Source: Nitrososphaerales archaeon TH5893 (GTDB taxonomy: Archaea > Thermoproteota > Nitrososphaeria > Nitrososphaerales > Nitrososphaeraceae). From it: a DNA stretch of 16,214 nucleotides. The notes beneath the pieces are model-generated. The model was not told where the DNA came from and did not search any database. It was given only the letters and a program-made list of their open reading frames with translations. The position numbers were made by a program, and so were the translations under genes. The stretch is taken from contig JAATVT010000001.1 in assembly GCA_014523685.1 (NCBI GenBank), forward strand, positions 1 through 16,214, read 5' to 3'. This document shows positions 1,927 to 9,164 of the stretch, in pieces; positions within the stretch are counted from its first letter, which is position 1, and each line of letters begins with the position of its first letter.

Positions 1927-2175
1927 ATGATGGGCATCATTTTAAAGTCTACAATGATCAGTTTTGGCATTGCAACAATAGCTTATTGTATTAATATTGC
2001 GTTAGCACAGATCGATCCTGCTGGGAATATTAGTGCCCCTACTGGGAATACTAGTGCCCCTGCTGTAAATAGTACTACCATTGGTATTCCTGAGAGCCCC
2101 ACCATTGTTGGTCCTTCAAGCCTCGTCGCTTCGCCAATTACTAGTGAGGCAAATGGTACTAATTCAACTGAATGA
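1927..2175 (+). CDS. Small exported Asn/Ser/Thr-rich glycopeptide-like protein
   Basis: The protein has 82 residues. Residues 1-28 form a signal peptide (core MISFGIATIAYCINIALAQ). The mature part of about 54 residues is almost free of charge and rich in N, S, T, P and A. It carries many N-glycosylation sequons (NIS, NTS, NST, NGT). Two 7-residue repeats (GNISAPT, GNTSAPA) come from a 21-bp tandem duplication. There is no Cys in the mature chain. Such low-complexity exported chains are common in soil ammonia-oxidising archaea; a glycosylated surface role is inferred. An overlapping frame at 2081-2299 lacks a signal peptide and was not chosen. Confidence 0.65.
   Translation: MMGIILKSTMISFGIATIAYCINIALAQIDPAGNISAPTGNTSAPAVNSTTIGIPESPTIVGPSSLVASPITSEANGTNSTE
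2021..2062 (+). repeat. 21-bp tandem repeat inside the 82-aa gene
   Basis: Two adjacent 21-bp units (2021-2041 and 2042-2062) start CTGGGAATA and continue TAGTGCCCCT, with two visible differences. They keep the frame and encode the two GNxSAPx units. Confidence 0.8.
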
Positions 2176-2516
2176 GGCTAACAACTTATTTTTTCTGCAG
2201 TTGGTGCCCGGCCGTTTGGAGGGCCTGTTAGTGGGTGTCAGAAACTTAACGCCACCGAATACTAATGCGTCTACAGGAAACCCTTTTAAAAATAAATAGA
2301 TAAAACAAACTGCTCTGTAAAATATATGCACATCCCATTAAGCAAATCAACCAGCGGCCCACACGATTGCGAAGAAGTGAAGGCTGGTTAGTTAGTCAAG
2401 ACGTGCAGTAGTACAATAACCTTCTACCTATTCTTGTACCAAAGACGAAGACGAGGGACAAATTAGCAAATAGTTGGCTGTCCCGCCTCCAATGCAGCCA
2501 TAATGGTGTTTATGCA
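2176..2516. other. Intergenic region
   Basis: The frame of the 82-aa gene runs on after TGA and TAA for 27 codons (QLIFSAVGARP...), but nothing supports translation. On the minus strand near 2405-2440 lies a degenerate copy of the start of the 46-aa gene at 2663-2803. Nothing else is evident. Confidence 0.4.
2405..2440 (-). repeat. Partial degenerate copy of the 5' part of the 46-aa gene
   Basis: Read on the plus strand, GCAGTAGTA, ACCTTCTACC and TTCTTGT line up with 2759-2788 after allowing a small insertion. On the minus strand this is the part coding VEGYYC in the 46-aa gene. Here it reads VEGYCT and is closed by stops on both sides. It looks like a relic of a duplication. Confidence 0.5.
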
Positions 2517-8363: not shown

Positions 8364-8705
8364 ATGCCATCATTTTATTCACCGACATATTATGAAGATC
8401 GAAAAAGAGAACATGACTTTTATATAAACCTAGGAAATCAATGTAAAAAAGCTGAAGAGCATAGACAGGCTTTAAGAAAAGCTCGGATGGAATTACAGAA
8501 AGAAGAAAGATGTTATCTCGTTTTGCAGGAGTATAATAAAAAAGTGGATGAGGCGAAGAGGGTGCTGGAAAAGAATAAGAAATTATCACATGCTTTAATG
8601 GAATATAATTATAATAAAGATAGGGAGTTGGTTTTATTACCGGATAGAATAGCTTGGCGTGATTGCCTTCCCTTTCTATTAGATAATAACACCGAAATTG
8701 AATGA
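8364..8705 (+). CDS. Coiled-coil protein, 113 aa
   Basis: After a Tyr-rich start (MPSFYSPTYYEDRKREHDFY), residues about 20-85 form one long charged helix with heptad spacing (CKKAEEHRQALRKARMELQK, then KKVDEAKRVLEKNKKLSHAL). A short globular-looking end has PDRIAWRDCLPFLLDN. There is no signal peptide. It probably acts as a cytosolic dimeric or scaffolding protein. The candidate structured RNA starts 13 nt beyond the stop on the opposite strand, so the gene and the RNA converge. The opposite strand is also open here (8293-8589) but has poorer composition. The family is not recognised. Confidence 0.6.
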   Translation: MPSFYSPTYYEDRKREHDFYINLGNQCKKAEEHRQALRKARMELQKEERCYLVLQEYNKKVDEAKRVLEKNKKLSHALMEYNYNKDRELVLLPDRIAWRDCLPFLLDNNTEIE

Positions 8706-8718
8706 AAAGTTCAAAGCA

Positions 8719-8836
8719 GGTAATAGAGGAGTCGAATGTCGAATATCATTTGTAGAACGATTCGCGGGTGCTTTTGTCCTTCCTTGGGTCGACATACAAA
8801 GGGCGGACTTATGGCAACCATCTATCCTCTATTACC
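8719..8836 (-). ncRNA. Candidate 118-nt structured RNA with paired ends
   Basis: The minus-strand segment begins GGTAATAGAGGA and ends TCCTCTATTACC, a perfect 12-bp closing helix. Inside are two more helices. P2 pairs 8805-8808 with 8776-8779 and 8799-8802 with 8782-8785, across a 2x2 internal loop. P3 pairs 8756-8764 with 8745-8750 and 8740-8742, nine pairs with one G-U and a 2-nt bulge. This gives a three-way junction. A minus-strand TATA box (TTTAATA, 8860-8866) is centred 27 nt before the first G, the spacing expected for an archaeal start. It lacks the conserved loop sequences of 5S rRNA and does not fold as a tRNA. No good ORF fills it, only 36 codons of poor quality. The class is unknown. 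Confidence 0.5.
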
Positions 8837-8892
8837 TAATAAGTACACTAGATGGTTCATATTAAATTAGAATGATGACAATGTATACAAAA
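8837..8892 (-). promoter_or_regulatory. Promoter repeat copy A (upstream of the candidate RNA)
   Basis: This is one of two near-identical copies. On the minus strand it reads TTTTGTATACATTGTCATC, then ATTCTAATTTAATA (TATA), then a less conserved 23-nt spacer ending GTACTTATTA. TGTATACA is an 8-bp palindrome and a plausible regulator site. The spacer ends exactly where the RNA's closing helix begins. Confidence 0.55.
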
Positions 8893-8909
8893 AATCGAAA
8901 TATGCTTCA

Positions 8910-9035
8910 TTATGCCTTTATCTCCTTATTTCTTACGACTTGCATGCATACGTCACAAAGTACTGTCGTATAGTTTCCGCACATTCTCCAATGATAGTCG
9001 TGTCCTAGTTCTGGATGCTCAAATGTACAAGTCAT
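8910..9035 (-). CDS. 41-aa zinc-ribbon-like microprotein
   Basis: The frame runs from ATG 9035 to TAA 8910. Four Cys and three His fit a small metal-binding fold: MTCTFEHPELGHDYHWRMCG, then VLCDVCMQVV. The CDVC knuckle resembles one half of a zinc ribbon; MTC and RMC could supply other ligands. The end is basic (RNKEIKA). The gene lies between promoter repeats A and B, and repeat B puts a TATA box 46 nt before the ATG, with a predicted 20-nt leader. It therefore seems to share regulation with the candidate RNA, which lies downstream on the same strand. A DNA- or RNA-binding role is inferred from size and Cys content only. A plus-strand frame over the same bases (starting at the ATG in repeat A) looks poorer. 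Confidence 0.5.
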   Translation of the reverse strand: MTCTFEHPELGHDYHWRMCGNYTTVLCDVCMQVVRNKEIKA

Positions 9036-9057
9036 TAGTCTTCATCCTTACTCTTAC

Positions 9058-9110
9058 TAATAAGTACATTAGATTGCTATTAAATTAGAATGATGACAAT
9101 GTATACAAAA
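9058..9110 (-). promoter_or_regulatory. Promoter repeat copy B (upstream of the zinc-ribbon-like gene)
   Basis: It is identical to copy A from TTTTGTATACA through TTTAATA on the minus strand, then diverges in the spacer with a 3-bp deletion and substitutions. The TATA box is at 9078-9084 and the predicted start near 9055. Copies A and B begin 221 bp apart. Confidence 0.55.
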
Positions 9111-9164
9111 GTAGCAATGAAAAAAGCTTTTAGATTTCGGCTTCTTTTGATTAGTTAATTAATT

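Follow-up and report, generated by a model that had tools for sequence, protein, structure and literature searches.

A candidate family of free-standing small RNAs with a fixed three-way-junction core and variable arms in soil ammonia-oxidising archaea

What does the minus strand of positions 8719–8836 encode in the window analysed here, a stretch of 16,214 nucleotides from Nitrososphaerales archaeon TH5893? A first-pass annotation, made from the letters of the DNA, had taken this segment for an undescribed structured RNA candidate with a promoter of its own. Ammonia-oxidising archaea are important soil nitrifiers and, to our knowledge, their small regulatory RNAs have hardly been described.

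The 118-nt minus strand of 8719–8836 folds with a minimum free energy of −34.6 kcal/mol, as compared with a mean of −22.6 kcal/mol (sd 3.2) for shuffled sequences (z −3.79), and none of 200 dinucleotide shuffles reaches its value. In the predicted fold the closing helix is accompanied by two main arms inside it and by a hairpin that is short and weak; this agrees with the three-way junction with two internal helices that had been proposed at first pass. The exact complementarity of the 12-nt ends, also claimed there, is borne out as well: the first 12 nt of the RNA (GGTAATAGAGGA, 8836 to 8825), which make up the 5' strand of the closing helix P1 (8825–8836), are the exact complement of the last 12 (8730 to 8719), which make up its 3' strand (8719–8730). 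In the inner helix P2, GGUUGC (8814–8819) pairs with GCACCC (8766–8771), with one U-C mismatch in this copy, and the helix bears an internal loop in which CAUAA (8809–8813) faces AAAA (8772–8775). Beyond this loop lies P2b, a variable apical hairpin on a GUCC/GGAC base (8776–8808), while the second arm is formed by a further variable hairpin, P3 (8740–8764).

A known RNA class is not recognizable in this element, which is in line with the first-pass opinion. Rfam at its gathering cut-off gave no match over the whole window, and ARAGORN found no tRNA or tmRNA gene in it. Permissive Rfam scans of window positions 8600–9150 and of 22 loci with copies (see below) returned eight matches, all below cut-off, only one of which overlaps an element; this is snoR113 (14.5 bits against a cut-off of 47), the sole snoRNA match to overlap the window element, and it lies on the opposite strand. 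Altogether three C/D snoRNA models matched in 8600–9150 with 14.5–17.6 bits against cut-offs of 45–50, scores that do not place the element among the C/D RNAs. The matches to NsiR4 (L048, E 0.1) and Flavivirus_DB (L050), and likewise three further permissive ones, fell outside the elements and were discarded. As to coding potential, there are stops in all three sense frames, and although one antisense frame is open throughout, the lengths of the element among its relatives are not kept modulo 3, so that no coding signal is seen and the earlier statement that the segment holds no good ORF can be upheld.

The window element has many relatives in its own genome, an assembly of 1.88 Mb in 258 contigs that is 79% complete. 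A blastn search with the window segment revealed that its 5' end recurs there about a dozen times. Eleven of 15 listed places were aligned with MAFFT (alignment A1, fitted to no model), leaving aside the promoter-only places C43:9044 and C166, the degenerate copy on C135 and the cut copy on C124, and this alignment was the basis of a covariance model, R1. R1 matched 33 places in the genome at E ≤ 10, and 28 at E < 0.001, 11 of the latter being founders of the model; the window copy is such a founder, and its 75 bits come about by construction. A second model, R2, which was built from 40 copies, matches 8719–8835 with 68.7 bits (E 4.9e-13), the window copy being again among its builders. Matches of the family are 62–249 nt long. 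Compared with its relatives, the window copy differs in the arms and keeps the core; in P2 it has G-C in place of one U-A pair, besides one mismatch. It is a diverged member of a large paralogous RNA family.

The true copy number in this genome may be higher, because several copies sit at contig ends; on the other side of the count, the copies C194 and C100 have near-identical flanks and may represent one locus assembled twice. Decayed copies were recognised by eye on C240 and C188, where R2 gives no match and a match with E 0.59, respectively. Three copies, those on C116, C199 and C130 (L076, L077 and L070), lie downstream of genes for related proteins that recur in the genome, with about 100–115 codons and 60–64% mutual identity; the one member tested had no Pfam match.

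The alignments also allowed us to ask whether the helices are maintained by compensatory changes. In A1, RNAalifold recovered P1, P2, the foot of P2b and one lone pair, with double changes in 7 of 22 pairs, 6 of which fall inside the three helices. In a 40-copy alignment (A2) 13 of 21 pairs are changed on both sides, and in an 83-copy alignment (A4) 17 of the 21 pairs of P1, P2 and P2b are (9 of 11 in P1, 4 of 6 in P2 and all 4 foot pairs of P2b), a number that 1 of 500 shuffles reaches; A2 and A4, unlike A1, were fitted to the model, and their pair counts lean towards structure. Over the 83 copies, double-change cells number 267 versus 94 in shuffles, and the covariation score amounts to 0.436 versus 0.181 (sd 0.008), with none of 500 shuffles as high. 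Related sequences can exceed shuffles even without any structure; however, controls in which the partners were slid by 1–3 columns retain this relatedness and yet their score in the same 83 copies collapses to 0.05–0.14. Furthermore, G-U and U-G cells outnumber A-C and C-A cells by 145 to 59 (89 to 59 among minor states), an excess that favours the minus strand of the window as the RNA strand.

P3 lies outside the covariance model, and its two halves were therefore paired either with their own or with swapped partners. In 27 copies of the own genome the energies were −6.1 versus −4.8 kcal/mol (none of 2000 permutations as low), and in 16 copies of other genomes, hand-picked to avoid close orthologues, they were −6.8 versus −5.0 kcal/mol (1 of 2000 permutations), indicating that the halves of P3 pair specifically. 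Of the checks suggested at first pass, the covariance model built from relatives and the search for compensatory changes turned out positively: the former found many more copies, the latter found such changes at the foot of P2b as well as in P1 and P2, and what had been a lone candidate is now supported as a member of a multi-copy RNA family with no counterpart in Rfam at its cut-off. On this comparative evidence, the copies form a family selected as RNA, on the strand given above, and mostly intergenic. In 4 copies the element is overlapped by an ORF of 90 codons or more; in addition, copy C244b, in which part of P1 has been lost, touches a 316-codon ORF at its end.

The strongest conservation within the family falls on unpaired nucleotides, namely (G/C)AUAA facing AAAA in the P2 internal loop and UA-A and UUGA at the junction. 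Across the 83 copies, 4 of the 5 positions on the 5' side of the loop are 96–100% conserved, and those on its 3' side 94–99%. P2b above its foot and P3 vary in sequence and length from copy to copy, and most copies fold better than shuffles as a whole (mean z −2.5; z < −1 in 66 of 83), with mean z values of −1.6 for P2b (z < −1 in 47 of 80) and −0.9 for P3 (z < −1 in 34 of 82). Among copies of the group labelled g8, P2b formed no hairpin in the three that were folded, and in the two others it was too short for this test.

Copies of the genus g2 fall into subtypes with features of their own. Those of subtype C (L119, L128, L142 and L151) carry an extra 5' hairpin upstream of P1, weak in G042, the stem of which differs between species (CCAAT/ATTGG versus ACAAT/ATTGT). 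A TATA-like stretch is found about 60 nt upstream of P1 in this subtype, and it may be that some g2 RNAs begin further upstream than P1. Three of the same loci (L142, L151 and L128) have a second match about 200–350 nt away. Subtype A (L137, L125, L149, L155, L120 and L138) has a conserved 5' extension in which CCUACC-like motifs flank a possible hairpin.

In the window, the TATA-like box TTTAATA (8860–8866, minus strand) spans −30 to −24 relative to 8836, just as the first-pass annotation had it with a box centred at −27. A TATA-like site occurs at −29 to −24 from the P1 start in 13 of 22 own copies, the next fullest of 17 overlapping bins holding 8. Since the words used had been chosen after the upstream sequences were viewed, the count was repeated with three generic TATA words, which gave 14 of 22 copies (next bin 7), or 13 of 22 with TTTATATA alone; the A+T content of the upstream DNA of own copies peaks at −30 to −24 too, with 0.81. 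Left out of these counts were four copies in which the beginning of P1 is lost or unclear (C138b, C244b, C213 and C136), two with too short a stretch of DNA upstream (C128 and C34) and C100, which nearly duplicates C194; for C124 the start was placed manually. The expected bin is empty in 8–9 of the 22; a promoter of its own, as required of a trans-acting small RNA, is thus predicted for 13–14 own copies and not for the other 8–9. As for other groups, TTTAATAA stands at about −28 in all five g8 copies inspected, and the g5 and g2 copies inspected are mostly devoid of a good TATA-like site at the expected place. At the 3' end no excess of a terminator signal was seen, a T5 run being present in the 60 nt that follow 8 of 71 copies, versus 13 of 79 for a control stretch.

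The promoter-like block of the window RNA, 33 nt in length (8860–8892, minus strand), is repeated exactly at 9078–9110 (minus strand), 218 nt upstream, where it precedes a small ORF. This putative gene of 41 codons, with Cys and His pairs and no Pfam match, lies between the two blocks (8910–9035, minus strand), and the window RNA seems to have taken over its promoter. The range given in the first-pass annotation, which extended to 8892, takes in the nearer block. At up to three mismatches the only other match of the block in the genome is C166:1223–1252, which precedes a gene reading, by eye, like a response regulator. Several own copies have a common longer upstream block, different from that of the window copy, which by eye is also found before a protein gene on C92. 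By eye, the shared upstream block stands before a protein gene at L157 (about 2162–2181, minus strand), and it may for this reason serve as a promoter element in a regulon that extends beyond the RNA genes. A search with the upstream motif AGTTnTTGCTAnCTnnCTGT at up to three mismatches gave 33 matches versus 30 for the reversed control, which is no excess; among its best matches, several precede RNA copies and one, by eye, the protein gene on C92.

With respect to the distribution of the family, blastn with the window segment produced only marginal short matches in relatives outside the own genome, and covariance models were needed. R1 had matches in 9 of 60 relatives, and R2 in 22 of 70 Nitrososphaeraceae genomes, including the own genome with its 28 matches, the other 21 carrying 1–8 each; the positives belong to 5 of the 12 genera of the family, Nitrosocosmicus and Nitrosopolaris included. 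An order-wide sample of 400 genomes yielded 22 positives under strict filters, all of them within Nitrososphaeraceae. Scans of more than 40 genomes used these stricter filters, and the 400-genome scan scored only some ten candidates for each genome listed, so that weak copies in distant relatives may have escaped. When 25 chosen genomes were searched under laxer filters, the single-contig g2 genomes G020, G013 and G002 showed 6, 8 and 3 matches and two g8 genomes one each (all six g8 genomes have exactly one in the R2 scan), and there was no match in ten genomes of g4, g6, g7, g10, g11 and g12 or in two genomes of other families. Three g2 genomes that are 94–99% complete (G064–G066) likewise gave no match with laxer filters, which argues that the RNA is dispensable within this genus; G001, the only sister genome in the own genus and 59% complete, has no match either.

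A search for the core pattern over 84,980 species, each represented by one genome, returned 33 stretches, of which 23 are titled Nitrosocosmicus, 9 bear other archaeal titles (Nitrosopolaris, Nitrososphaera sp. AFS, Nitrososphaeraceae, Nitrososphaerales, one Nitrosopumilus and one Nitrosopumilales) and 1 is from Xylanibacter. The stretches titled Nitrosopumilus and Nitrosopumilales appear to belong to genomes G063 and G008, which lie inside Nitrososphaeraceae. When 9 of the 33 loci were given to the model, 6 matched and L168 (near the locus end), L184 and L169 did not; the last is the Xylanibacter stretch, which is left unsupported, as is a pattern match in one viral contig. A tree of the core separates g2 and g3 from the own genome, g5 and g8 with a support of 0.99, on 82 columns only and with most inner nodes weak.

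Sequence evidence of this kind leads us to favour, with some confidence, the interpretation that 8719–8836 (minus strand) is a free-standing small noncoding RNA gene built on a fixed-core three-way junction and putatively acting in trans. P1 closes the ends, P2 bears the near-invariant internal loop, and P2b and P3 vary by copy. Each RNA gene would be transcribed from its own promoter and exert its effect in trans. The constant core (P1/P2, the AUAA/AAAA loop and the UA-A and UUGA junction) would serve all paralogues as the docking site of one and the same partner, most likely a protein, whereas each paralogue would have a target of its own through its variable arms, by analogy with other multi-copy regulatory RNA families.

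The main rival of a docking core is a metabolite-sensing or catalytic one, that is, a stand-alone RNA whose core binds a small molecule or self-cleaves, the arms being scaffolding. This would account for the near-invariant internal loop as well as for the wide drift of P2b and P3 and the near loss of P2b in g8 copies. However, for a sensor with no genes attached to it, amplification to nearly thirty copies within a single genome would be unusual, and no Rfam match of any kind was obtained at cut-off; we thus regard this alternative as unlikely, albeit deserving serious attention.

We are more sceptical of a cis-acting riboswitch or leader, located in a 5' UTR and controlling the downstream gene by binding a metabolite. 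An invariant loop core with variable arms does resemble an aptamer, and the RNAs of C85a and C135 lie 62 and 79 nt before same-strand dehydrogenase-like genes (a Pfam zinc-binding dehydrogenase in C85a; that of C135 judged by reading only). Nonetheless, among mechanically called, uncurated ORFs of at least 90 codons downstream of 62 copies, 30 are on the same strand and 32 on the opposite one (10 and 13, respectively, within 250 nt), and the neighbouring genes differ in kind, so that the RNAs do not consistently stand upstream of related genes. C100 and four g8 and five g2 entries (recurring in the other set or near-duplicate) were left out of this count, which orthologous copies from other species entered individually. 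As far as these predicted ORFs tell, neither the orientation of the neighbouring genes nor their kind is linked to the RNA genes.

Very little speaks for a non-autonomous mobile element (MITE or palindrome-associated), in which P1 would be a terminal inverted repeat and the copies would have been spread by a transposase. A repeat search did find exact 13-nt inverted arms that constitute a terminal inverted repeat (8718–8730/8825–8837), there are 28 matches in one genome, and several copies sit at contig ends. On the other hand, no target-site duplication above chance was detected in 22 copies (sum 22 versus 26.4 with flanks swapped; longest 2 nt), the interior core is the most conserved part while P1 varies with compensation, and several subtypes occupy syntenic positions between species. 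In g8, for example, the RNA follows a proteasome-subunit gene at a distance of about 250 nt in 5 of 6 genomes, and in 3 of 6 the RNA is followed within about 200 nt by a gene that matches Snf7 (ESCRT-III-like) weakly, below the Pfam cut-off; similarly, one and the same gene (69.5% identity) precedes both C85a in the own genome and G042_35775 in g2. A blastn search of phage and plasmid collections with the window copy found nothing, though diverged copies would escape it. Finally, chance secondary structure in intergenic DNA can practically be dismissed, for a single hairpin can arise randomly but no shuffle folds as well as the window element and the covariation over 83 copies refutes it.

Returning to the interpretation as trans-acting RNA genes, we would tentatively go one step further and propose a new archaeal class of riboregulator or RNP, in which the three-way-junction core binds one dedicated partner, two exchangeable arms give specificity, and nearly thirty genes have radiated in a soil ammonia-oxidiser lineage, several of them under a shared promoter type; this proposal may well prove wrong. 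Since one genome carries nearly thirty copies, functional tests of the conserved core and of the variable arms have become feasible, and three genomes of the Nitrosocosmicus genus group, each a single contig, carry the family, which makes it directly accessible to experiment. Full-text literature searches, as far as they reached, brought up no paper on such an RNA family, which is apparently undescribed.

It remains to compare this family with known systems. Y RNAs, the ligands of Ro60, share several features with it: their ends pair in a closing helix that bears a conserved element, their inner loops vary, and they occur as several paralogues; the present family, however, has no Rfam match and its hosts are without TROVE/Ro60, which, considered as the partner, was absent from all 70 Nitrososphaeraceae genomes (the same search was positive in 1 of 14 control genomes). 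Three-way-junction riboswitch aptamers likewise have an invariant unpaired core and free arms, but here there is no consistent downstream gene and neighbour orientation is even. Archaeal C/D and H/ACA guide RNAs also come in many paralogues per genome, and differ in that the present RNAs have no Rfam match above cut-off and no recognised open guide stretch, their variable parts tending to pair with themselves. The bacterial trans-acting families Qrr and LhrC resemble them in being paralogous, intergenic and endowed with a common core, whereas closed ends, a three-way junction, about thirty copies per genome and archaeal hosts set the present family apart. Multi-copy small RNA genes are a known kind, and it is the core, the host group and the extent of amplification that are new within the literature and Rfam as searched here.
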